Source: Pempheris klunzingeri (lineage: Eukaryota; Chordata; Actinopteri; Acropomatiformes; Pempheridae). From it: a stretch of DNA of 64,000 bases. The notes beneath the pieces are model-generated. The model did not search any database, had not been told where the DNA came from, and saw only the letters and a list, made by a program, of their open reading frames with translations. The stretch spans positions 10,238,433 to 10,302,432 of the forward strand of contig NC_092023.1 of NCBI RefSeq assembly GCF_042242105.1, written 5' to 3'. The translations under genes and the position numbers were made by a program. Positions 11,701-45,800 of the stretch are shown one piece after another. Each line of letters opens with the position of its first letter. Position 1 is the stretch's first letter.

Positions 11701-13174
11701 GTCACCCCCCCCCCCCCCCCCCCCTTGTAGGTAGGGCTAAAACTACAAATGCAATTAAAGTTATTCTAATAGAAATGTTTTGTTCATGCTGACATTTGGC
11801 CACATTTGTGTTGAAGACCAACTGCTATTGGTTAACTTACAACCTGTCACTTAATGTTTTACTCTGACCTTAGAGAGACACTGAAAGTGCATAAAGTCTC
11901 TTTAGGCACTGCGACCAAACCAAAATCCAAGCTAGACTTTGCACATTTTAGCTGAAGGGAGCAAAAATACTGCAGACTGCAGATCCCTTTCACCCACTGA
12001 AGAAGGAGATAAGAGAGCTTACACAGCTCAGATAAAGATGTTTCAGACATGCTGTTTAACAAAGATAATAGATCACTTTTATTCAGATGATAGACCACAC
12101 ACACTTAATGCACTTCAGAATTTGCCTGAAGTCATCCCACACACTAATGTAAATATTTATAACTTTAGAAATATGGCAACTCATTCCACTTGATTTATGT
12201 TTCATATTTTGCCTTGGACAAAGTGAGAGAGACTGCCTGTGTAGCACGCTGTTACTTCATAGTAATGTCTTATGGGAAAATGTACAGTATTTGAGTGTTG
12301 CCTGAAATGTATCACTGCACTACAATAAGTGAATACAGACGTATGGTGTTGGTGGGACTCACAGAGAGCTACAGCGTTCAGCATGCCAGTGTAGGGCGAA
12401 GCACCAATGCTCTGATAGATGATGCCGATGCGGTCCTGCACGGCACCCTTGGTGACATCGTTGTCTAAATGCATCACAAAGAAGGCCACAAAGAGACCGT
12501 AGATCAGGTTCTGGGACAGACGCATCAGGACACCCATCCTGTCTCTGGACAGGTTTCTTGCTGTCCGCCTGCACACAGAACACACATGGAAATACATGTA
12601 AACACGCGTGAAAGCATGCGTGTCCTCAGGTGCATGTTCATACGGCACAGCTCTGACCTGAGCAGAACTCCAAGTTTGGCTGCACCGCTGGGTGACTCTT
12701 TGCTCTTAAAGGGGATGGCCGGCTTGTCTGCCCGCTGCAGGCTCTGCTCCATTTTTCTCAGCATGCTCTGGTAGATATCAGACCTCTGATAGGATGAAGT
12801 GATCTCACGCATGCGATTGAAGGTGGCTGCCTCCCTCTCACTGCTGCGTGTGTCCACTGAGGTGAAGTCAACTGTTTAACATCACAGCAATCGGAATATT
12901 TTAATGTACATTTTACACACACTCCATTCTTTTAGATACTGTATATTCTCAACATGTACATATTCGTTACTTGTTTGTGTTTTAACACAGATGAGTGGCT
13001 ATAATACAGACGCCACATAATTCATAATTCATACCATAGATGTCAAAGGGGTTGCAGTACTCTGGACACTCATATCCACATTGGCTGAAGAAATCCACCA
13101 TCTCTTCTGGCTGCCCACAGAACACCAGCTCTCCACAACTCATTATAGCTATCCTACTGAACACCTGGGGGGAA

Positions 13175-14467: not shown

Positions 14468-17400
14468 GTGGGTCTCTGCTCATTCCCTTAGTGGTGTGAT
14501 AACTTAGTCTTTCATTACTCTTCTCCATCTCTCCCTCAATCCCTTTCTCTGCCCCCTCCTCATTCCTCTCTTACTTAGATCCTTTTGTTTTTCAGTGTGG
14601 ACTTCTAAAACTCTTTGGGGATAGGACGGGTCTTTCTCCTGAACTTTCTTCTGTTCTCAGGATGGCACATTCATGCCTCCAGTCCTGTTGCTTCCAGCAG
14701 TGTATGAATGAAATATCATGTGTTAAATACAGTGATTCACTAAACAGAGTGTGCAACATCTTTCTGATATTGTGTCACAGCCCCCTTTGTCTACTCTTTG
14801 TCCTATGTGTCTAAAAGCTTAAAAAAATCACTCCAATGCTTCCGTTTATCTACTCCATATCTCTTTATTTCTGAGCACAGAGTTCTGTAAAGCCATGACA
14901 ATTTATGGGATAATGGCTTTTACTTTGAATACCCTCAGCAACATGATTTAAATTTGCAGCCGCTGCACCTTTTGGATGTCTGATGGTCACGATGCACAGA
15001 TAAAACTCCTTCAGTTGTCCTCAGACGTATTCCAGCTGCAGAGGTACTCACTTGGGTCCTGAAGTAGCTGGCTGGCAATGGAGACCCTTCTCCTCTCGCC
15101 TCCAGAGATCCCTGGGAAGACACGACCTCCAATAACACTGCGGGCCACATGACTCAGACTCAGCTCGGCCATCGCTGCCGACACCTATACAGGTGCCAGA
15201 GGTCAAGGGTCAGGTGACAAAAGAATTACTACTGCTAACAAGTCAACTGACTACTGTAAATAATGTACTTGCAGGTCTCGTTAGTTCACTTGATTAGTGG
15301 GAGGAATGTTTTCTGTTTATTTCTGTTTATCTTTGCTTCGGATTAAAACATGATAAGGAAATATTGAAATAAAGTAAAAAGGATAAGTTAGAAATGATGG
15401 ACATAGGCTATAAATGCCTTGAAAGTTGTTTAATTTTGACCCTGTTGACAAAACATGCAAGCTGTGATCATAAGAAGGGAGATTTTAAGATGTTTTGACT
15501 ATGGACCCATAAGGTATCACACCGGCTTAGGTAAGCAGACCTAGCACTAATGACTGGCTGTTGCACAGAACATATTGGTACAGTATAGATATTAGTATAT
15601 TTGTATGTGTGCATTAGACAAGGAAAATCCAACTCACTGAATTTAAAATAATGTTTAAATGTTATGATACTATATTATCATTTATGCTGATGTTGGACTC
15701 AACCATATTTTGGATGAGCCAAATATACAGCAGAACATCACCCTGCAAAGTGTCTCAACAAAGAAAAAAAGTTATAAGCACTAATACTTCTGAAAACCTT
15801 GTAATGTTCTTCATTTGTCTCTTTGTCTTTTTGTATTTTCTCTGCCAGGGAGACATGCCAGGTCTAAGCTAAAGAGAACTGATAGATTGGACAGAGCAGA
15901 AGAGGCGAGAGTCACCTTCTTCTTGATGGCCTCGGCCGAGTGTTTCCGCAGGGCCAGCTGGGCTGTGTAGGTCAGAGTCTCCTCCACTGTCAGATAACTC
16001 AACAAGTTATCACTCTGGAGAAGAAAGAGACCCAGAGATACAGAGAGAGGAGAGGAAAAAGACAAGAAACGGCAACAACAAACAAGTAAGAGATTAAGTG
16101 AGGCAAACAAACACCTCATGGATCGTTTGTACTTTAATACACTACATAATAAAATACACTGCTTCTAGTGAAATGACAATTATCTCCATCAAGAGATCAT
16201 CATATATATCTATATATATATATAAAAAACCTCTCTGTTCCTCCATGTAGTTCACATACTGTAGTATAATGGCTATATGTAACTCCATATGTGTGTGTTC
16301 AAATGAGCTGTAACATACCTTTGCCCCAGACGTACACACACACATTCATACACACATCCTTTGTTTGAACCTGCTGAACCTGCAGCCTGCTTCAATTAAC
16401 ACGTGGCAGCTCCCAATCCCACTTCTCCTCAGTCTCTCATCTGAATGACTTTAATATCAGGAGCTCATATCACCTCCTCATCTACAGCTTAGCAGGGGAA
16501 GTTAATGACGAGGCTTAGAGAGCAGAGGAGGGTTGCTATCAGCGAGAAGAGAGAGATGATTTGAAAGGAAGCAAGGCCAGTTTTAAGCCAGTGTTTTTAA
16601 TTCAGGCTTTGGATACACTTGAGCACCTCTCATTGAGAGATTAAGTATATGAGGAGGCTAGCTAGGGTCTTTAGTTAATTTCATCCAGAGGCCAGGGCAA
16701 CCTTTTCAGGAGTTTTTGCAGTATGGTGTGTGTTCATTGACTTTGTGGTTCCACATTTATGGTGGTCAACCACAGGCAACTTAAATATATACGAACTGTC
16801 TACATGCAGCCACTCTCTAACACTATAGGGCAAAGTTTAACCTGATGTCAGTGTGTGATGAGAACTAGGGCAAAGTGAAATGTGGATGTTCGTGCATGTT
16901 GCAAGGTGCTAACTGCTTTCAAACCACTGTTAAGTCTCTTTAGTAATGTGTTGGCAATATTTTATTTAACACTGCTTTAGATAATGAGGTACTCTGAGTA
17001 TAGTTCAGTAGTTACATTTCACCAACAACTGGTCAAAATGTTTATGTGTTACCTGCAGCACATAGGAGAAGCAGTCCTGATACTCTTCTCTCTTCATTTT
17101 CCTGCCGTTAATTAAGACCTCACCCAACAGTGTACCACAGTTTCCAATCCTCCCTGAGATGGCATCCAACAATGTGGTCTTTCCTGAACCTTTACAACCC
17201 AAAGTACACACACACACACACACACACATTGATACTTACGTGCATACAATAAAAAACAGGATATATCTAGTCACATATTTAAGAAATATTTATACTGGCC
17301 AACAGAAGGATTCTCTATACATATTTACATATATACATATTTTGAATGAAGAGTGCTGCCTCATTATTAATAGTAGTTTTCATCAGTGTTCATAACCAAA

Positions 17401-18249
17401 TAATTTGACTTTCAGCATGAATAAAAAGTGCTGTCACACTGTTTTTATAGCTGAGTTCTTAGTTAGTAAATAATTGAGAACAATGTTCATTAAAAGTGAT
17501 CTTATTGCATGGTAAAAACGTCAGACTTTTTAAAATGACTTATTTCTAATAGAGTTTGCTCTTTTAACTGCGAGTGCAAACCTGAATTGCCAAGTATGCC
17601 CATGATCTGCCCACTGTCTATTTGGAAGGAGACATCATTGAGGATCTGACGAGTCCAGCGCTTCCTGTATGAAGGCAGGTCCCACCACGGACCTACACGC
17701 TCACTGGCCGAAGCACACACACACATATACACACACACTTTTAACATCAATATTTTTTTAACATTTCTCAGAATCAATGTCCGATATCAAAATGATCATC
17801 ATTTGATTTCAAAGTATATACAAGTATTTATCAACGATGAGCAATGTGTTTTATTTTACACTGCATAGTTTCCAAGAGTTACACATTACATTTATTTTCT
17901 GCTGATTCAGTGGAAATGAGAGTTAAACCCATAGAATTATAAATAATTCAACCCACACCTGTCAGTATATATGCATAATAATATAACATCTGTATCTGTA
18001 TGATACCATGTAGTTAATCCTTTTTTTGGATCTGTGTCTCAGTCATCCTCTACACTCTGTCTGTGTCTGCAGCATTTACCTGACAGTATAGGAGATCTTG
18101 CTGACACTGAGACAGCAGGAGGGCTCTGATCGCTCCTCTCCACCGTCCCTCCTGACATCCCTCTTCACCTCCGACACATACTTGAAGGACTCTCTAACTT
18201 TGTTCCCAATCTCTGGCTCCACCGTCTGCATGGAGTAAAATCTGTCCAT
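8715..18249 (-). CDS. abcg5: abcg5, sterolin-1 half ABC transporter
   Basis: Fourteen coding exons, in transcript order: 18249-18080, 17703-17582, 17189-17053, 16014-15916, 15184-15052, 13978-13839, 13164-13035, 12871-12658, 12568-12363, 10471-10333, 10171-10098, 9464-9353, 9166-9054, 8899-8715. They total 1974 nt, 657 aa (human 651), with every junction in phase. Start [15 protein letters not shown]. Nucleotide-binding domain: Walker A GNSGSGKTT (95-103), signature ISGGERRR (202-209), Walker B VILLDEP (222-228), H-loop His259. Six membrane helices follow, with first-helix text [14 protein letters not shown] and C-terminus [10 protein letters not shown]. An N-V-S sequon lies in the last extracellular loop. 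With ABCG8 it forms the obligate heterodimer exporting plant sterols and cholesterol from enterocytes and into bile; human loss causes sitosterolaemia. The signature is ISGGE where human ABCG5 has ISTGE. Exon 10 uses GTGGGT as donor, not the downstream GTAAG, because only that keeps frame (WTVGMHP). Confidence 0.96.
9465..10097 (-). other. abcg5 intron 11 with a 17-bp inverted repeat
   Basis: Intron between ...VPHIIG and ELLTVVLLG. It holds a perfect 17-bp inverted repeat: cttgtcatccaactcga at 9858-9874 and its reverse complement at 9942-9958, separated by 67 bp. The 9910-9990 arm has splice-like edges, but the frame is continuous without it. Human ABCG5 is described with 13 coding exons, so this may be the extra intron. 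Confidence 0.5.
10472..12362 (-). other. abcg5 intron 9, poly-C tract, no gene seen
   Basis: An intron of 1891 nt, largest in abcg5. It holds a 20-base C homopolymer at 11705-11724 on the plus strand. No open frame, transposon or conserved motif is recognised. Confidence 0.55.
11705..11724. repeat. Poly-C homopolymer (20 C)
   Basis: Twenty consecutive C on the plus strand (G in the abcg5 transcript), inside abcg5 intron 9. Its length is prone to sequencing error. Confidence 0.85.
13175..13217. repeat. (CA)n microsatellite upstream of abcg5 exon 7
   Basis: About 21 CA units on the plus strand. In the abcg5 pre-mRNA this reads (UG)n, ending about 10 nt before the UCUUCCCCCCAG acceptor of exon 7 (13164-13035). 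Confidence 0.9.
13218..13838 (-). other. abcg5 intron 6, rest of the intron
   Basis: About 620 nt of AT-rich intronic sequence between the (CA)n tract and exon 6. No gene or transposon is recognised. Confidence 0.5.
13979..15051 (-). other. abcg5 intron 5
   Basis: Intron of 1073 nt. It contains a short (CA)n tract at 14438-14463 and no recognisable gene or transposon. The open frames across it are driven by the repeat. Confidence 0.5.
15185..15915 (-). other. abcg5 intron 4
   Basis: AT-rich intron of 731 nt with no microsatellite, gene or transposon that I can recognise. Confidence 0.5.
16015..17052 (-). other. abcg5 intron 3
   Basis: Intron of 1038 nt. It has a short TA-rich tract near 16200-16225 and purine-rich stretches around 16500-16560. 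No gene or transposon is recognised. Confidence 0.5.
17207..17228. repeat. (CA)n tract upstream of abcg5 exon 3
   Basis: Eleven CA units on the plus strand, read as (UG)n in the transcript, ending about 17 nt before the exon 3 acceptor (17189). A similar (UG)n/(UA) tract lies upstream of exon 2 at about 17715-17739. Confidence 0.85.
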
Positions 18250-18856
18250 GTCTCCGTCCAGTCGGCGACTTCAACCAAATCAAGTACGTCTCAGATCTCT
18301 TTGTTCATATCCACAAGACTTGCAAAACAACATGTGAAGTTCTAAAGTTGAGTCGTCTTACAGGCCCAGATTTTGTCTCTCTGCGCACATTCCCTGTTCA
18401 GCAGCAGTGCGAGAGCAGTGGTGTCTCTCGGGAACCATAAACACACAATGAATGTTGCGTTATCTCAGAGAACTTTGATCTGGACTTGTATAATGAAGAC
18501 AAAAAAACACACACATGCTGAGTAGCTTCACTGGCAGTCAGTCTCACATCAGTCCTCAAACTGTACGCTGTGACCAGAAAAGCTATGACTGACGGGACAG
18601 AGCAGACGAAGAACTGACATGACATGAACTTGGACGCTTTGAGGAAGAAGTCTTGTGAGCTGAGACAAGAGAAGATCTTCAGCTGGACTGGAGTCGAACG
18701 ATCTATCATAGAGAAGAAACGGAGACGAGTGGAAGAACAGGAGAGCAGAAAAGGCACATTCTGTAGAGAAGAAAAAAGAGAGGAACAGAGCAAAGTAGAA
18801 AAAGGGGAGCGTTGACCTCTTAACCCTACAAACATCAACCAATAACTTGCATCATC
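18250..18856. promoter_or_regulatory. abcg5/abcg8 head-to-head bidirectional promoter
   Basis: The 607 bp between the two start codons hold both 5' UTRs and, very probably, a shared promoter, as in mammals where the genes are also head to head. A GATA site (ttatct, 18460-18465) lies three bases from an HNF4-like DR1: the minus strand of 18469-18481 reads agatcaaagttct, 11 of 13 matches to RGGnCAAAGKTCA. GATA factors and HNF4-alpha are reported regulators of the human promoter. The segment 18600-18830 is strongly purine-rich on the plus strand. A CCAAT box at 18839-18843 is too close to the abcg8 ATG to be a normal promoter box. No convincing TATA box or CpG island is seen. An intron within the abcg5 5' UTR cannot be excluded. 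Confidence 0.7.
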
Positions 18857-21800
18857 ATGGTCACTGACACCAGCCTCAGTCATACAAACTGCTCCTCACA
18901 GGTCAGTTTTCTACATGGGATCACCTAAACATGTTGGCATGTTGGTCAAAAGAGCCCAGTGTGATTGAGCATTTTTTGACTGCCACTGGAAATGGAAAGA
19001 ATAACAGTTGCTTCAATGTTTCAAGTGAAAATGCAAATACCAAAATAGTTTCAATTGTACATAGAAAATCTGTAATATTTTAAAATGAATACATTAGAAT
19101 AAATGTAACTATGGGTGCTTGATGCATATTAGGATTTACTTCTATTTTTGCAGGTTTAGGTCACTATGTTCTTGTTTCTTTTTCTGTTTTCCAGTTTTTC
19201 TCACAATGCAAATACATTAGAACATTTTGCTAATCTATGTTGGTGACATTTTTGAGACCATGGGCCTGACATTCTTTTATAAACTATGCTCTGCTAGACC
19301 AGGAGGGTTTGTCTAAAAAAGATACTAGATATACAGTAAAAATACTGTAATTATTTAAGTTTCACCTGAAGTATGGTTTAATAGCATTGGAGACTTATGA
19401 TTCCCACAGGTTCTACTCTCATATTTCAGGTACCACGCCTAAATAAAACTGACTAGGACAGCTGGATGACCAAATTTCCAAGGTCTAAACTACATACACT
19501 GTCAAAGATATTCTGTGAATGTGCTAAAGAAAAGCTAGCAGGAGGTCTTAAAACTGTAGGTCCATGTCACTAGAAGCCATATCTGCCATTTTACATGACA
19601 TCTACAGAATGTGCAATATATACTACATACGTATAATACAGTGTAGAGTATGTTCAGTAGATCTGAGTACATGCTGCATTTTGAAACATGCATTTGTACT
19701 TTTATTGTTTTGGAGAGATTTAAGGATCACAAAAGTCTTTGGTTGTCTTTGTAGTGTCTGGTGGCTCTTATTCGTTCCTCCATTCTTATTGGTCTTTACT
19801 CTCTGAGATTTTATTGCAGTTTGTTCTGTAGGACTGACATGGATACAGATAAAAGAATCCAACGTGTCCTTGCCTCTGTGAAACTCATTGACCTGTCAAC
19901 CCCTCTTTAACAGCATCAAGACACAGAGCTGTTCTCGTCTGAAGAAGACAGCAGTCTCTACTTCACCTACAGTGGAGGGTGCAACGAGCTGGAGGTCAAC
20001 AACCTGCACTATGAGGTAACTGGCGGACAGGTGCCAAGCTCTCATACGCAGTCACCTTTAGCTTTTAACTGTTCTAACCTCGGCATGTGTGTGCATGTCT
20101 GTACCCTTGTGTGAATGTGTGTGTGTGTGTGTTCCCAGGTGGACACAGCAGCTCAGATCCCATGGTATGAGAGGTTGTCAGAGTTCAAGTTGCCGTGGGA
20201 GATAAAAGGAAACAAGCAGACAGCCATCAACAATCTCAGCCTCCGAGTCCGCAGCGGACAGATGCTGGCCGTCATCGGCAGCTCAGGTGAAAAACAAGCA
20301 CACACACACACACATACGTAGAGATTTTAAGTATCTCTGTTTCTAATCAAGCTAATAAATGTTTCCTGGATGATGTCATTTGTTCTTCCTCAAACCTTTA
20401 ACTCCAGCCTGCAGTTTGGTACATGAAACATATTACAGAACAGAGAAACAATTAAAAACTCTCATTTTCTTTCTTTACACTTCCTGTGCAACTAGAAAGA
20501 AAGGAAGAAAAACTGCCATGTTTTGATGCTAGTCAATGTCTCATGACTTGTGTATTGAGTTTTGTTGGTAGTGAAAAGATGGTTTTTACTTTAAAAATAT
20601 AATCATCTTCTCCCAGGTTGTGGTAAAACATCCTTGCTGGACATAATAACGTGCCGTGATGAGGGCGGTACAATGACATCCGGTCAGATTCTGATCAACA
20701 GGAAGCCCAGCACGCCCCAGCTGGTGAAGAAGAGCATCGCTCATGTCCGCCAAGACGACCGTCTTCTTCCTCACCTCACCGTTCGTGAAACTCTCGCCTT
20801 TGTTGCCAAACTGAGGCTCCCCACCCACTTCACACAGGCTCAGAGGGACCAAAGGGTAAGATTAAGCTTAATGGACAAATATTAACTCAAACCACACCCA
20901 CACAGGCACAGAATGTACACAGCATGACGACTTTATGAGCCCGTGCTGAGGCAGTGTGTCTATTTTTGTTTTTCTCACAATGTAGTAAGATAAAACACTA
21001 AATAATAAAAGATCAACTGCTCTGTGTGTTGTGAAAGACAGTTGTCATAAGTTATATGTGCCAAACTGTACCTCTGCTGTTTTCTGTCGCAGGTGGATGA
21101 TGTCATTGCAGAGCTGCGGCTGCGACAGTGCGCTCACACCAGGGTGGGAAATGACTTTGTGAGGGGAGTCTCTGGAGGAGAGAGGAGGAGAGTCAGCATA
21201 GCTGTCCAACTTCTCTGGAACCCCGGTATGAGAGCGAAAGACACAACCTCTTAAACTCTTGATTTTCCCTCTTAACCTTCATTACGGACAATCAGCCTTC
21301 AATCTATGTGGCTTTTTAGGTGTGAAACCGGCTTAAAACTTAATCATAAAGTCACAAAACTTTCAGGTATTTTGATCCTGGACGAGCCCACGTCAGGTTT
21401 GGACAGCTTCACGGCCCACAACCTGGTGATCACACTGTCGCGTCTGGCACGGGGAAACCGTCTGGTCCTGCTGTCAGTCCACCAGCCTCGATCAGATATC
21501 TTCCAGCTGTTTGATCTCGTCGTCCTGCTGTCGTCAGGTTCAGCTGTTTACTGTGGCGCTGCTCGTGACATGGTGCCTTACTTCACTGCCCTAGGATACC
21601 CCTGCCCACGATACTGCAACCCCTCTGACTTCTATGGTTAGTGTGAATGTAGAAAGCTGTTTAAACAGCATTAAGTCGATGTCTGAGGCTGGTCATCATC
21701 CCCACACTCAAGGGCACCTTATGGGAAAATTTGGACCCAGAAATGTCCCAACAATTCTGTCTTTCCTGTCATACACGCATCCATGGTCTCAAATATGACC

Positions 21801-22043
21801 CATTCGTCACTCTAAGCCTATGTATATTTTCATTTTGTTGGTTTGTGTGTCTGTGTGTGTGTGTGTGTCCAGTTGATCTGATCAGTATTGACCGGCGTAG
21901 TCCAGAACAGGAGGCCAAGTGTTTGGAGCGGGCCACAGTTCTGGCTGAGCAGTTTGTGGAAAAAGTCAGAGACACAGACGATCACATGTGGAAACCAGCT
22001 GGGATCGACACAGCACCGGCACACACTGAAAGGTAGCAGTGTG

Positions 22044-22082
<39 letters not shown>

Positions 22083-22522
22083 CACTTTTTTCCTCCTTTT
22101 CCTTATGGACTCATTTGCAAATTTTTCCCAACTTTTGTCGTTTCCATTTGTCCTACAATTTCGGCCCCATTCGTCCTCACATTACTTCCCCTCTCCCTCA
22201 TTTAAAAATGACATAACTTGACATGTAAAGTCTCCAATGAGCAGCTACAGGCCTTGTTTTGGTTCCTCTGCCTGTCAGAAAAAGCCAATGCTCTGACTGG
22301 ATGACTGAATGGGATTAGGGGGCTCCTTTCTACAGATTCCTCCTTTAATATTGATAATTTATGGGAAACTGGTTCCAGACTGCCTGATCCCCTGTTCTCC
22401 TGCCTGCAGTCCTCAGCAGCTGAACAAGGTAAAAGAAGAGGAAGTTATCACCATCTCTAAGCAAACAAACAGACTGCCTGGCAGACTGCACCAATTTACG
22501 ATCCTCATCAGGTAAGAGCAAA

Positions 22523-22564
<42 letters not shown>

Positions 22565-25108
22565 ATTACAGCAGTTGTTCCCAACTTTTTTGTCTGTTGT
22601 ACCCCCACAACCCTGTCAGATGAGTATTAAAGCGCTCAAGAGGGACACATATGAACGCTGACCTCCCCTTCTTTCTTTTCCCTCAGGCGCCACATGTATA
22701 ATGACTTCAGAGACCTGGTTACTTTATTGGTCCACGGCTTCGAGGCCCTCCTCATGTCACTGCTGGTCGGCTGTCTCTACTACGGGGCAGGAGAAGAGCG
22801 TCTGTCCATTCAGGACACAGTGGCCCTCCTCTACATGATCGGAGCTCTCACCCCATTCGCTGTGGTGCTGGACGTCATAGCTAAATGTGAGTAATTACAG
22901 CTGCGGAGGAGGAAGACAGTCAAAGTGAGTCTGCAAATCAGTCAAAGAGTTGATGAAGTTCATTTACTTTCTCTGTTTCTTTGTTAGAAATGATACATTG
23001 ATTTAAGTGATGTTATAAACATGATTATTAACAATTATTATTATTAATTATTAACATTTTTCTCCATTGTTTTGATGGAGCATTATAAGAAAAAAGCCCA
23101 GTTTTGATATTAGGTGATGCTCAGAGAGGTGTTCTCAGACCTCATAATACAGTTGTCAAAATCACATAGCAGTGTGTAAAAAGAAGATACTGCAACAAAC
23201 AATTTCCTTTTCAACACAGAAATGAGTTCAGACCTGCAGCCACTCAGTGCTGATAAATACATGGAAGTCTGTTCACTGCTGCATACCTCGCCTGCCATTT
23301 ACACCAAGTTTACATCAACATATATGGGACATATGATTTGCAGAAGCATAGCTATTATAACAAGCATCTCAACGTACCATATCCAAACAAACTGACACAA
23401 ATACACAAAAACAAGCAAAACAAAAAAATCTTTGATGCAGAACCAGAAATCACTAAAAGGTCAGAGGTTGTGATTGCAACATTTGCAGTTTTACGTCGAA
23501 CGTCGTTGGCAAAAGTGCATCAGATCTACGAAGAAAAGCTGTAAGAAGACAAACCAGCAGGGGTAGGAATGTTCAGAACAGTTTGGCAAAGTTATTAAAG
23601 CAAAAGTTATCATCAAGTTATCAGACTTTGTTGAGCTGGGCACAGTGTACTTGGACTCTGAATCATATTATATTCAATCACACCAGTTGCAGAGATATCA
23701 AGAGCAGGAGTCTGGCCAACTGTCATTAAGTTCAAGTCAGGTCAAGGTCAAGTGACGCCAAAAGTTATAAAAGTTTGCTACTAGATACTGTAACAGTGCC
23801 TGCATGTCACACAGAGGCCAAAATAATATTGAATATCTTTGAGAAAACACAATACGAATACTACGTTAACTACATTTATTACCACATGTAATGTGCTTTA
23901 TTTGTCACTGTGTTGTGTATGAACATACAACAAACTGAAGAACAGTACATCTGTAAAGCAGCCTGATACCAGAGGTTCGAATGATCCTCATCAGGCTAAC
24001 AAAATGTCCTCTGCAGGTCACACTGAGAGAGCCATGCTCTACCACGAGCTGGAGGACGGCATGTACTCTGTCACCTCCTACTTCTTCGCCAAGGTAAACC
24101 TCCTGCATCTCCAGCAGGGGTCAGTCTCACTCCATGCTGGAGTCCCACTTTGGTGTAATGTACCACCCCAGCGATGCACAGCACTGAAGTGTGTCCACCA
24201 GCCAGGATCCCAACTCAATGTTTGTGTGTGTTTGTCTGCATTTCTGTCTGTTGTGTATATTTGAAAGTACTCTGTCTCCACATTCAGATCCTGGGGGAGT
24301 TACCAGAGCACTGTGTGTTCACCTTGGTGTACGGTTTGCCCATCTATTGGCTGGCCGGGCTCAACGAGGCTCCGGAGCGTTTCCTGCTCAACTTCCTGCT
24401 GGTGTGGCTGATGGTTTACTGCAGCCGATCCATGGCTCTGTTTGTAGCTGCTGCGCTGCCCACCCTGCAGACCTCAGCCTTCATGGGCAATTCCCTGTTC
24501 ACCATCTTCTATTTAACTGGAGGGTTTGTCATCAGCCTGGAGAACATGTGGCTTGGTGAGGAGACGGGTTGCTTGTCCGTAGTTAAAAGAATTGTTAGGA
24601 GCCTGAAGAAGACGTGTGTGACGATAGAGCTTAGCTGGTCGGTCTGTGATGTTCACACATGTGCATGTCTTTGATTCCCCAGTGGCCTCATGGTTCTCTC
24701 ACGCCTCCTTCATGCGTTGGGGTTTTGAGGGCATGCTGCAGGTACAGTTCAGAGGCAACAAGTACCCCATCACCTTCTTGAACAGCACCATCAATGTTGA
24801 CGGCATACACGTGAGTCAGAGACAAACACACACATACAAAATCATACACGAGTTAATCAAACAGTTCCACATATCATCATTCATGTACAGTACAAGAGTA
24901 CAGTTTTCTTTCTTTTTTTTAAAATTAGTTTTCAGTGTTTAAAATGATAACACTGGGCACTGTTTTGCAGGTGGTGGAGGTCATGAACATGAACCAGTAC
25001 CCCTTGTACTCGTGCTATCTGGTCCTGGTGGCAGTGTGTGTGGGATTCATGGCGCTCTATTACGTGTCCCTAAAATTCATCAAACAGAAGTCCAGTCAAG
25101 ACTGGTGA
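18857..25108 (+). CDS. abcg8: abcg8, sterolin-2 half ABC transporter
   Basis: Thirteen exons: 18857-18901, 19914-20015, 20139-20286, 20617-20855, 21093-21225, 21367-21636, 21873-22032, 22410-22511, 22687-22886, 24017-24093, 24288-24555, 24683-24810, 24971-25108. They total 2010 nt, 669 aa (human 673), all in phase. The first exon encodes [15 protein letters not shown] and joins [17 protein letters not shown]; its start is inferred from position and phase, the rest from strong similarity. Nucleotide-binding domain: Walker A GSSGCGKTS (96-104), signature VSGGERRR (204-211), Walker B ILILDEP (224-230), H-loop His261. The C-terminus is [13 protein letters not shown], nearly identical to human. 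An NST sequon lies in the last extracellular loop. It pairs with ABCG5 for sterol efflux. Walker A has a lysine where human ABCG8 has arginine (GCGRAS). Exon 7 has a weak GTAGCA donor between two GT-rich tracts. Confidence 0.96.
18902..19913 (+). other. abcg8 intron 1
   Basis: Intron of 1012 nt, AT-rich. No microsatellite, transposon or gene is recognised. In mammals the first intron of this pair carries regulatory sites, but I see no specific strong motif here. Confidence 0.5.
20287..20616 (+). other. abcg8 intron 3
   Basis: Intron of 330 nt. A short (CA)n tract begins 14 nt after the donor (about 20300-20313). Nothing else is recognised. Confidence 0.5.
22049..22078. repeat. (GT)n microsatellite after abcg8 exon 7
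   Basis: About 15 GT units beginning 17 nt after the exon 7 donor. A second GT-rich tract lies directly before the exon 7 acceptor (about 21842-21870). Confidence 0.9.
22525..22562. repeat. (CA)n microsatellite after abcg8 exon 8
   Basis: Nineteen CA units starting 14 nt after the GTAAGA donor of exon 8. They read (CA)n in the pre-mRNA. Confidence 0.9.
22887..24016 (+). other. abcg8 intron 9
   Basis: The largest abcg8 intron, 1130 nt, AT-rich and without microsatellites. No gene, transposon or strong conserved-looking block is recognised. Confidence 0.55.
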
Positions 25109-29478: not shown

Positions 29479-30387
29479 ACAAACACAGGAGGGTAGCTGC
29501 AGGCCTGTGTACCCTGAGCAGGCAGACTGCTCTGTCACATTACTACAGGACACACACACAATGGCATGTTTTAGAAGGCCAGCCGGACAACTGCCAGCAC
29601 CAGTTAGTGTTCGTATTTGTACACTGATCTGTTCATAATATGTTGTTCATGTCTGTATGCTTGTATCAATATGGATAGCTGTGTGTGTGTGTGTGTGTGT
29701 GTGTGTTAGCATAGGGTTGGGGGAGGGAGGGGGGTTACTTGATTGGTATCATTTATCGACTTTAAGTGACATGTTACCATTGTCTGAATTATTGAGTTCG
29801 AGCCCAATCAGCAAATATTTTATTATCAACTAATCTTTTAAGTAGTTTCAAAGAAAAAACGCCAAACATTCCCCAGTTCCAGCCAGTTGTTTGTGACGAT
29901 TTGTAGCTTTTATTCGTTTTATGCGACAGTTAAATTCAATATTTTTTCTATTTTACTTGTTTAGTTCGACCACACCGGCAGTTTCATGATATGTCCTTGA
30001 ATGTTTTTGCTACTATTTTCTAGCATTTTACGGATGAAACAATGAACTGAGAAAATAATCTGCAGATTCATTGGTGATGAAAATAATTAATGTCATCCTT
30101 AATTTGAACCCCATCGCTCGCCCAAATATCTGTACTGCTGTGAGCACTGAGACATGGTGGGAGTGAAATTTCTCATTTTTCTGGGGAGTCAAGCTGATAA
30201 CAGTACAGTCTAGTCTGGGTAAGTTGGAGGACAATTACTTTTGTTACCAACTATATTGGTGAAGTCAGTGGGAGTGCGAGTGACAAGTGGTTTTGAATAC
30301 TTCACATTTTAAAAATACACTCCCTCCCTTAAATGCTGGACCCAATCACATCTGCAACTGAGTGGTTATGTGGAGCGTCTCCCTCGT

Positions 30388-30459
<72 letters not shown>

Positions 30460-31967
30460 CTCACAGGGGGCTCGGTGAAGGGCAGCGGCTCTCCTGCATT
30501 GCGGTAAAGTACAGCCAGCCGCTTGAGTGTCAACTCGTTGGCGGTTATCTCCTCCTTCAGCATCTGCTCATACAGAGCCTTGGCTGACGGAAGGTCCTTA
30601 TCCACGACTGGCAGACAGGAAGAGGAGAGAGGGAGAGAAAAAGTCAGACAACACACACAACATGTCAATATATTTAATTGTAGACATTTAGCGAAAAAAT
30701 TGTGTGTGTGTGGGAGGGAAAAAAAAAAGAGAGAATGCATCATTTTTATTGGTGATGGGATAACCCTGATATGTTCCACCTGGTCTATCATCAATGTATT
30801 GATGCAGAGAAGAGAAATCTCAAAGCACATGCAAACATTGTCCATTATGTTAGGATGTATCCATGCTTTTGCCATAAAATGCTGTGGGCTGTGCACATTA
30901 AACAAGCAGCAGGTGGAAAAAAGTGCTGTGAATAACAAGCGTTTACTGTGCAAGTGTATAAAAACAGTCGCAACACCATATGAAGATAAATCCCCTGGCC
31001 AGCAAAATACTTTTTACTGATTTAAATTAGATTATCAGAGAAAGAAAGTCAGATTACTACAATATTACAGAGCTGAAATCAGTAACTTTAACCTCCTTCT
31101 TCAGGTACACATACCTGGATTAAATGAAATTATATTATATTGCAATTGTCCGTTCATCTGAAACGGTACAATTGTGTGTATCGACAAGACCCGAGTAAAA
31201 GAAGTGAGGTCACTACTGCCAAATAGAAAAGACACGAGCAAGTTGAGAGACAAGAGAAAGAAGGAAGAGCACATAGAAGGGGCAGAGAGCAGAGGCGAGC
31301 ACAGCATCGCTAATTGTGTCCCCAATGGCTGCCTTGACCGACCAGCTGGCTAATGCTAATTAAATAGTCATGTCTGCTCTTCTCTGGTGCGACAGGGTAT
31401 GAAAGAGGGGAGACGGGAGGGTGAAAGGGTGAAGTGAACGAGAGGACATGAGGCGATGAGAGGATGCGGGTAAAAGACGGGAGGAGAGGATGAAAAAAAA
31501 AAAGACGAGAACAGATAGACAAGAGTGAAAAGGTGGCGAGGGCGAGAAGTGATGAGACAGGAGAAACAATCTGGAAAGAAAAAAGAAAAGTTGAGTGGTG
31601 GACCATGTTGCGATTAGCACGCTAGGCTAACCAGGACAGCTAACTCATTAGAGGACATGTGTTCTTCTAACCCCTGAATGTCTGCCCACACACACACACA
31701 CACACACTTCTTAACCTGATGCATAGTTAATGAGTCTGCTAATGTTGACTTAGCCACAGGCCAGTGAGCCGTCTGCTGCACCACTAGCTGCTCCACAAGA
31801 CCCGTCCAGGCCTGGTGTGAGTGTGTGTGAGAGTGTGTGAGTCTTACCATGACATTTCATCAGGTACGAGTACAGCAAGTCCTTCTCACTGAAGTCTGGG
31901 AACAAGCTCATCAGGGTCTTCACCTTTTCCCCCTGTGCACACAAACATCGATTTACATACAACATCA

Positions 31968-42890: not shown

Positions 42891-45800
42891 ACAGTGCAAA
42901 AATGCCGGGCCGGCAGGGCCGGGTCCTCTAATGCTCCGTCACCCGTGAAGCAGTGAGGGGAGGGGGTTAAGCTGTATTGGCTAGGGGCAAATTAGGTCTG
43001 GCACCCCAGGGGCAAAAGAAAAGTGTGTGTGTAGGACAGTGTGTGTGTTGAAGCGGGGGGTGTCAACTCAAGAGCCCCTGGGGTCACTAAGTTCATCGCT
43101 CCAGGCAACAGCAATCACTTCCTGTCTCATCACGCTTCGGGCTATTGGAGCTCGCTCACATGCAAAGCCGAGGAAAAATGCAGCAAGGACGAATGAAGCA
43201 ACAGAACAAAAAGTAAAAGCACATTATATTATTTAAAGCAAAACTCCCTTCTGTCTTCATTGTTTTCATTTTTTAAACACATACTCAGATTTTGTTTACT
43301 TCATCTTTAGGTCACAATACAGTCGAGGCCACATGCAAACATCACTATGAATCCAGCGGCAGCCATATGGTGGCATTTAGCTGCTGGCTAAATTAGTCTG
43401 GCATTACAGATTTACAGACAGATCAAGCTGTAATTCCTTTCACCAGCCAGCCGGTCTGATTGACCACACTTCAGATCAGAGCTTCAATCCTGTTTCCTCT
43501 CCATGTAATGAACAAGGGCTTAAAGCGGAGCGGGGGTGGGGTCGGGGGAGAGAGCGTTGATAAGAGTTTTTAGAGGTTTTTTGGGGTTAGTTCTTGTGAT
43601 CAGAGGTTGGGGTCAGCATGCTCTTTGGTTTATCTATGCAGTATGAAAATAATTGGGAATGTTTATATTTGGCTTTTTGTACAATGAAAGCTCCAAAATA
43701 AAAAAGACATTCAATTTCAAATGACATAAAAGAAAGACTTCTCATATTTAAGACAGTGGAAAGAGAGAATATTTGCTGTTTTTGCTTAATAAATGATCAG
43801 AAGATTATCTAGATTGTTCACGATTATTTGTACAACTTTCAGTACTATGACCAAGGGTAACTCCACCCCATTTGATTCAAGATTTAGGACAGAGACGTAT
43901 GCACAGGCACCACTGTGATGTGTGTTAAACCATCGGTGCTGCATGATTGTGTGTTATGTTTGACCTCAGGCACTCCAGAGTCCTCCAGAGCTCTTGGAAA
44001 TCTCCAGGCCTTCAGTTTCCGCTTCATCTGCTCTGCCCCCCCCCCTTAGGAACCTCCCAGAAATTATTCCTCTGAATAGCAGATCTGTTTAATGAGCATT
44101 ACAGGGATGTACATATTATAAAGCTGGAGCTTTACCTCAGGCACCTCAAAGGGCACCTCCTGGCCATTTTTCCTCAGGATGTTTGCCAAAATGTGCAGGG
44201 TCCTCTCCCTGGGAATGACGTTCTCCTCCTGCATCTTCATCCACAAAGTTTCTGCCTTCTGCCAGTCGTTTGTGTCCTCTGATAACAAGACACAAGGCAG
44301 TGGGAATGAGAAAAGGTGTGTTCTTATGTAATTTGTTATGCAATGCAATGGCACACAGACCCATGTAGTTGTATAGTCAGTCCATACTGATTGTAGCTCA
44401 CCACTCAGCTAGCACCACAGAGTAATTTTTGACAAAGCGCTCCATGCTGAGAGGGCAATCAAAGCCCTAATCTGATCAACTGACTGACCCTCAACTATAC
44501 TGTAATTTAGAAACCACACTAACCAGTGGTGTGTGTGTGTGTGTGTGTGTAGGGAAGTGGGGGTAATGGGTTGACAATCAGCTTTAACACTCCAATCACA
44601 ACTGCTATCTGCTCTGTGCCCCACTGCAGCAATCACACCATGTCTTCTGCTCTTACTTCTGACTGATCCCATTCTTCATCTCTCTCACACACATGCGCGC
44701 ACACACACACAGACCCCGGCGCTAGAACACTGCACACCCAGGGGTGGAAGGTCATGACAGCAGAGGAGATTGGGGGTAAGTGGGGGGTTGCGGATTGAGG
44801 TAAATAAACTAAAAAGAACAAACAAAAATGGAGGAGACTTACTGCAGAGGCGGAGGGTGTAACTGTACATCTCATCTCTGTCGCACTCAAACAGCTTGGC
44901 TGTCAGTTCCACCATCTGCTCCAAAGTCTCCATCTATACACACAAACCCAACAATATATACATCACGTTTAAATTTTTGTCCGTTTTCATCTTCTCTCTG
45001 CTTTCATCTTTACTGCCTCGATTAGTTCAGTCTGTGTGTGTGTTACCTGGCGGGAGGAAATGCATTTGTCTGCGAACCACTGCAGGCGCCCAGGGCGTGC
45101 CCTCAGCCCAGGGGTCTACAAAAGGAAAAACAGGGAATTGTTTCTAAGGAGAGTGTAGGTAAATAACAGTGCATCCGCCTCCAGTAGCCTCTCTGATTTC
45201 TATTTAGCAATATCACGGTGTTCAAGGTTCATATCATAATAAACCTGAGTTATCCTTTAAATCAAGCCTGGAATATTTTAAAGCATCGCAGTTAAAGCAG
45301 GATATCAATGAATGTCTATCAAAAGGTCAATAGAATATAAGTAAAATGTGTACTTACACCATTAACGCATTTTCCATAGAGTAAATGCCCATTGATCAAT
45401 ACAAACCCATCCAGCCTAAACAGCATTTGAGTATTGCTATTAGTTGATGTACAGCAGGTATAGAATCCTATAGAAGAATCAATACTGAGGGATACATCGC
45501 TGCTTAAAATGAAGTGTGCCTGCAGAATGAGCTCTTGTGCCTGTATGCGAGTGCCGTTTTTCCATTAACATCACACTGATGTATTTTCAGATTATCTTTT
45601 AAGTATAAATTGGAGAAATGTGAAGCTCATTTCATGTGGGCTTGAGTAGACTTGCTGCATATAGGTACATCACTACACAAATAACATAACTCGTACACAG
45701 TAAGATGTGTTTAGAAGATAAATGCATCTTTCTATTAATGATAAAATGTCCGAAAGTAGCAAAAATGTTCATCACAAGTTCCCAGAGTCCAATGTGACAT

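Follow-up and report, generated by a model that had tools for sequence, protein, structure and literature searches.

ABCG8 Walker A in fishes and tetrapods

The Walker A motif of ABCG8, one of the two subunits of the ABCG5/ABCG8 sterol transporter, barely varies among teleosts and is unusually variable among tetrapods. The comparison starts from a stretch of 64,000 nucleotides of the fish Pempheris klunzingeri (GCF_042242105.1, NC_092023.1, positions 10,238,433 to 10,302,432), referred to below as the window, which sits on contig C12 of a 646-Mb genome assembly and holds both genes intact, arranged head-to-head on opposite strands. Of the two ATP sites of the transporter, site 1 is formed by the Walker A and Walker B motifs of ABCG8 and the signature of ABCG5, and mammalian export needs site 2 only (PMC8403869); in human, site 1 is inactive. 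Both sites are canonical in the window. Walker A is constant in teleost ABCG8 and has changed in a lineage-specific manner in tetrapods, and the signature of site 2 is kept. These sequences suggest that the key ABCG8 motif of site 1 stayed intact in teleosts and changed in several ways in land vertebrates.

ATP sites encoded in the window

The ABCG8 Walker A, GSSGCGKTS at residues 96-104, is encoded on the plus strand in two parts, at the end of exon 3 (20277..20286) and the start of exon 4 (20617..20633), with Lys102 read from AAA at 20625-20627. On the same strand, the Walker B motif LILDEP (residues 225-230; 21372..21389) retains its Asp and Glu, and the H-loop SVHQ (259-262; 21474..21485) retains its His. 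The ABCG5 half of site 1, the signature ISGGE at residues 202-206, is encoded in exon 5 on the minus strand (15109-15095). Site 2 contains the ABCG5 Walker A GNSGSGKTT (95-103; minus strand, part 1 at 17582..17591 and part 2 at 17173..17189) and the ABCG8 signature VSGGE (204-208; 21168..21182, plus strand), which served as an internal control. In both genes an intron interrupts the fourth codon of the Walker A, which points to their common origin. Neither protein lacks the Q-loop Gln, the Walker B Asp-Glu or the H-loop His. It can be seen that consensus Walker A, Q-loop, Walker B, H-loop and signature are present at both sites, and that neither site is off consensus in Walker A, Walker B or signature, as a degenerate site would be.

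An earlier sequence-only reading of this DNA, whose span of 15052-20855 exactly covers the interval between ABCG5 exon 5 and ABCG8 exon 4, both included, had described GSSGCGKTS with Lys102, ISGGE at 202-206 and intact Walker B and H-loop residues. Exon-by-exon rebuilding of both genes gave the same result on every point. The human motifs that it had set beside them, GCGRAS and ISTGE, agree with the PDB chains (ABCG8 7jr7_B, GSSGCGRAS; ABCG5 7jr7_A, ISTGE) and with PMC7756502.

Conservation in fishes and variety in tetrapods

The fish set comprised 135 distinct ABCG8 entries from the best 120 matches of each of three protein searches, with isoforms, unnamed records and the window's own protein counted in. 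The named entries are all teleosts, mostly percomorphs, the most distant being Salvelinus and Brachyhypopomus. Among the matches listed, all 135 fit the pattern GxxGxGK[ST]. Walker A reads GSSGCGKTS in 134 entries and GNSGCGKTS in the remaining one (Lucifuga), and none of the 135 deviates from VRQD in the Q-loop, LILDEP in Walker B or SVHQ in the H-loop. The canonical state is therefore the rule in the sampled fish ABCG8, and a peculiarity of Pempheris is ruled out.

Two database names among the fish sequences look wrong. The ABCG8 of Sarotherodon carries the name of a sodium channel, and the ABCG5 of Bagarius that of a cytoplasmic dynein 2 light intermediate chain, perhaps through fusion with a neighbouring gene.

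The tetrapod set comprised 20 ABCG8 sequences, namely the human PDB sequence and 19 from a search limited to proteins of at least 701 aa. The best 120 matches of that search held these 19, 5 fish ABCG8 (three already known) and 2 fish ABCG5; the other 94, mostly full-size ABCG proteins, were unused. The set covers nine placentals, one marsupial, seven birds, one lizard and two frogs. Twelve Walker A variants were found among these 20 tetrapods, which divide evenly at position 102 into 10 with Arg and 10 with Lys. All nine placentals have Arg, as GSSGCGRAS (6), GSSGCGRDS, GSSGYGRAS or GSSGCGRSS. Lys is kept in the marsupial Petaurus (ESSGYGKSS) and the lizard Sceloporus (ESSACGKTS), both of which lost the first Gly. 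The frogs differ from each other, Discoglossus having GNAGCGKAS, with Lys kept and Thr lost, and Hyla GNSGCGRTT, with Arg. All seven birds keep Lys, in GSTAGGKTS (3), GTTAGGKTS (2), GSTDGGKTS and GSTGGGKTS; the fourth Gly is altered in six of them, and the goose Anser is changed only outside the consensus positions. Anser is the single tetrapod (1/20) that fits GxxGxGK[ST]. In the same proteins the ABCG8 signature SGGE of site 2 is kept in 20/20 and the D-loop is unchanged in 20/20.

Sceloporus undulatus stands apart. Its ABCG8, on a long branch, has lost two glycines of Walker A together with the Gln of the Q-loop and the Asp-Glu of Walker B, and it is the sole tetrapod without these Q-loop and Walker B residues (VRED, LIFSDP). 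Site 1 may be heavily eroded here, or the gene model may be poor.

Fish and tetrapods were cleanly apart on a 36-row tree built without the motif columns, and position 102 required two changes on this tree, in placentals and in Hyla. Parsimony changes were counted on the tree of all 155 rows. Of 461 changes in the nucleotide-binding domain (NBD) among fish, 1 fell in the nine Walker A columns, against 20 of 276 among tetrapods (Fisher p 2.6e-8, the test taking parsimony changes as independent). As control columns, the 172 NBD columns with at most one fish change, Walker A included, were used. Random sets of nine non-Walker-A control columns showed a mean of 5.06 tetrapod changes, and 20 changes were reached in 31 of 20,000 draws. 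Moreover, among 106 nine-residue segments with fish entropy of at most 0.10, that of Walker A was tied with a neighbour for the top tetrapod entropy. The parsimony, random-column and entropy tests therefore indicate a Walker A shift well beyond the generally larger divergence of tetrapods.

The sequence-only reading had proposed, as one option, later degeneration in the mammalian line, to be checked by alignment across vertebrates and mapping on the tree. A later change is supported for ABCG8, but it is not a mammalian event, since Hyla also has Arg and the marsupial, the lizard, Discoglossus and the birds are changed elsewhere in the motif. These separate changes across tetrapod lineages, together with the tree, rule out a single mammalian loss for ABCG8. 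The ABCG5 signature was read in four species only, and the fish among them are not uniform.

A second copy of the region

A 59-kb contig (C103) proved to be a second copy of the region, with 98.5% and 97.7% identity to the window over two 10-kb stretches holding both genes. Between the two copies, 2010 + 1974 coding bases contain 5 synonymous codon differences, 0 amino-acid differences and no premature stop codon. The exons of both motifs, ABCG8 exon 4 and ABCG5 exon 5, are unchanged in this contig, which makes a read error unlikely. In a search of the window's own genome, with the best candidates scored, no further ABCG5 copy was found; among those candidates, ABCG5 exons turned up at the locus and on C103 only, and other matches were weaker and belonged to ABCG8 and other ABC genes. 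On this evidence a read error or collapsed paralogue is rejected. A corrected read with R or T at the two positions had been named as the outcome that would overturn the sequence-only reading; the second copy gives the same motifs, and the reading is sound. Across all aligned pieces the identity of C103 to the window ranges over 89.4-98.5%. It most likely represents the other haplotype, left uncollapsed in the assembly as a haplotig.

Explanations for the state of site 1

We consider it probable that the sterol exporter encoded in the window is a normal, intact teleost ABCG5/ABCG8, canonical in sequence at both of its ATP sites, and that the requirement for site 1 was relaxed in tetrapods. Canonical Walker A is common to teleost ABCG8, the paralogue ABCG5 (four sequences) and ABCG2 (PMC7756502), and the canonical state of site 1 would therefore most simply be ancestral. 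Site 1 as a whole, with the ABCG5 signature, would most likely go back to a symmetric ABCG ancestor. The Walker A on its ABCG8 side would then have been held nearly invariant in teleosts, in which site 1 probably binds and hydrolyses ATP like ABCG1 or ABCG2 dimers. In tetrapods a relaxed requirement would have let this Walker A change by different routes, the placental Arg being one. In human nucleotide-binding site 1 (NBS1), motif scrambling without impairment of export and poor binding of ATP have been reported (PMC8403869), and drift of the tetrapod Walker A fits relaxed constraint for this reason. We infer relaxation as the cause of the tetrapod change on this basis, and the motifs themselves suggest ATP turnover at site 1 of teleosts. 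Two working sites in the fish sterolin, the other option of the sequence-only reading, would be compatible with the sequence. The ABCG5 signature may have had a history similar to that of the ABCG8 Walker A. In zebrafish, Abcg5 and Abcg8 have been reported at the membrane only on co-expression, and protection of larvae against lindane has been ascribed to them (Zhang L. et al. 2020, via PMC8696203), both of which suggest an active heterodimer.

Several points weigh against this explanation. The looser P-loop pattern [AG]x4GK[ST] is fitted by 7/20 tetrapods, all of them birds (7/7), so that site 1 of birds may be competent. The other ABCG8 residues of site 1 are also kept in tetrapods (Q-loop Gln 19/20, Walker B Asp and Glu 19/20, H-loop His 20/20); wholesale decay of ABCG8 site 1 in tetrapods is not borne out, Walker A alone being widely changed. 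Except for human, the tetrapod sequences are a small sample of unusually long gene predictions, with one bird entry labelled low quality and a long branch for Sceloporus in the tree, and Fisher's test carries the assumption of independence given above. No site-specific activity data for any fish heterodimer were found in the literature searched. Finally, the ABCG5 comparison consists of four sequences, three fish and human, and the signatures are ISGGE in Pempheris and Bagarius, ISAGE in Hippocampus and ISTGE in human. The ABCG5 signature can thus vary in fish. The seahorse, Hippocampus zosterae, differs at the glycine position that holds Thr in the human protein.

The seahorse ISAGE also hints at weaker constraint on the ABCG5 half of site 1, as would be expected if the fish site, canonical as it is, acted mainly as a structural ATP clamp, with its motifs kept for binding and turnover confined to site 2 through asymmetry elsewhere. 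The degenerate site of type I exporters is thought to hold ATP as a hinge (PMC7756269). Intact catalytic residues in ABCG8 do not prove hydrolysis, as they are mostly retained in tetrapods whose Walker A has changed. However, every hydrolysis motif is present at both sites of the window and none marks site 1 as the weaker, and we regard such a clamp as rather unlikely.

The same retained residues bear on another idea, in which the site-1 P-loop of tetrapods did not decay but was remodelled, lineage by lineage, for a different role such as tuning of nucleotide affinity or trafficking. Retention of the Gln, Walker B and His residues in 19-20 of 20 tetrapods speaks for remodelling, and the Walker B and H-loop residues leave room for a structural role of site 1. 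Birds share a common GST[A/D/G]GGKTS or GTTAGGKTS type with Lys, and placentals are uniform for Arg. Reviews argue for continued pressure on degenerate sites (PMC7756269) and for a structural role of that of ABCG5/G8, the latter on the grounds of ABCG5 mutations (PMC7756502). On the other side, placentals vary at the residue after Arg (Ala, Asp, Ser), position 5 is changed in Orycteropus, the lizard also lost the Q-loop Gln and Walker B Asp-Glu, and scrambling of the human NBS1 motifs leaves export unimpaired (PMC8403869). Remodelling appears improbable. Poor gene predictions among unusually long isoforms could account for part of the tetrapod diversity, as the length limit of the search, the low-quality bird entry and the long lizard branch might suggest; but related species agree (placental Arg 9/9, bird Lys 7/7) and the human Arg is present in PDB sequences. 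An artefact of this kind is very improbable.

If relaxation in tetrapods is accepted, a wider reading becomes possible, and it is put forward tentatively, as somewhat doubtful: a switch from two sites to one would have taken place on the tetrapod side of the vertebrates, an exception to the view of degenerate sites as constrained. Sterol or bile physiology would perhaps have changed along with it. Should the second site of teleosts be functional, nature would offer one orthologous pump in a one-site and a two-site form, and a comparison of the two could ask what the second site adds to sterol export.

Gene models and neighbouring features

ABCG5 (18249 to 8715, minus strand) has 14 coding exons and encodes 657 aa, with GT/AG at every intron and a single open frame. 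Exons 1-7 lie at 18249-18080, 17703-17582, 17189-17053, 16014-15916, 15184-15052, 13978-13839 and 13164-13035, and exons 8-14 at 12871-12658, 12568-12363, 10471-10333, 10171-10098, 9464-9353, 9166-9054 and 8899-8715. ABCG8 (18857..25108, stop codon included, plus strand) has 13 coding exons and encodes 669 aa, again with GT/AG at every intron and a single open frame. In the protein search, all 669 residues of its model agreed with a Pempheris klunzingeri entry named ABCG8-like (100% identity). According to the gene models, the region shared between the two start codons (18250..18856) measures 607 bp, the close head-to-head arrangement expected of the sterol transporter genes. The top PDB matches of the two proteins are ABCG8 and ABCG5, as expected of orthologues of that transporter; identity to the human proteins is 62.8% over 643 aligned residues for ABCG8 and 62.0% over 611 for ABCG5.

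The motif NPXDFXXD, with two salt-bridge Asp at the NBD interface (PMC8100176), has its Asp pair in both proteins, as NPSDFYVD in ABCG8 and NPFDIYVD in ABCG5, the latter with Ile in the place of Phe. ABCG5 exon 8 has two candidate AG acceptors 15 nt apart (12857-12871, minus strand). The upstream one, at 12871, restores five residues matching human MDLTS; the alternative deletes them beside NPFDIY.

Beyond ABCG8, minus-strand reading frames at 30366-31013 and 44064-44408 resemble pentatricopeptide-repeat exons. Two of the three pieces tried from these frames gave a PPR_2 match, far under the curated cut-off. They perhaps belong to LRPPRC, a neighbour of ABCG5/ABCG8 in mammals.

Comparison with known systems

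The closest known system is human ABCG5/ABCG8 (sterolin-1/-2; PDB 7jr7, 5do7, 7r87-7r8b, 8cub), of which the fish proteins are orthologues at about 62-63% identity. The human genes are likewise a head-to-head pair (PMC4458048), and the site 2 motifs are alike, GxSGSGKTT in ABCG5 and SGGE in ABCG8. The two differ at site 1, where the human pump has Arg111 (ABCG8 Walker A) and Thr (ABCG5 signature) in place of the Lys102 and Gly204 of the fish. For human ABCG8, a displacement of the P-loop by roughly 10 A is reported (PMC8403869). Both genes are reported to be missing from lampreys and sea squirts (PMC4458048). In the literature searched, with most subscription journals outside its scope, no prior report on the state of site 1 in fish or other non-mammals was found. 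A study of mammalian ABCG proteins tied lower conservation of one ABCG5/8 NBD region to the degenerate site (PMC8001107).

With both sites canonical, the fish pump resembles homodimeric members of the family. In the ABCG1 homodimer, Walker A and signature are of the consensus type at both sites. The same holds for the ABCG2 homodimer (PMC7756502). Unlike ABCG1 and ABCG2, the fish pump pairs two different subunits.

Human ABCG5/G8, for its part, resembles the asymmetric ABC transporters with one off-consensus site, from which Pempheris differs in that its ABCG8 Walker A is not degenerate. The sites of asymmetric transporters are described as conserved after degeneration (PMC7544095 for ABCB11; PMC7756269 in general), and the latter, a review of type I exporters, states that degenerate sites 'have not deviated' among orthologues. 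The different routes taken by the tetrapod ABCG8 Walker A do not fit well with that statement, and this variety bears on the general claim of selection on degenerate sites (PMC7756269).

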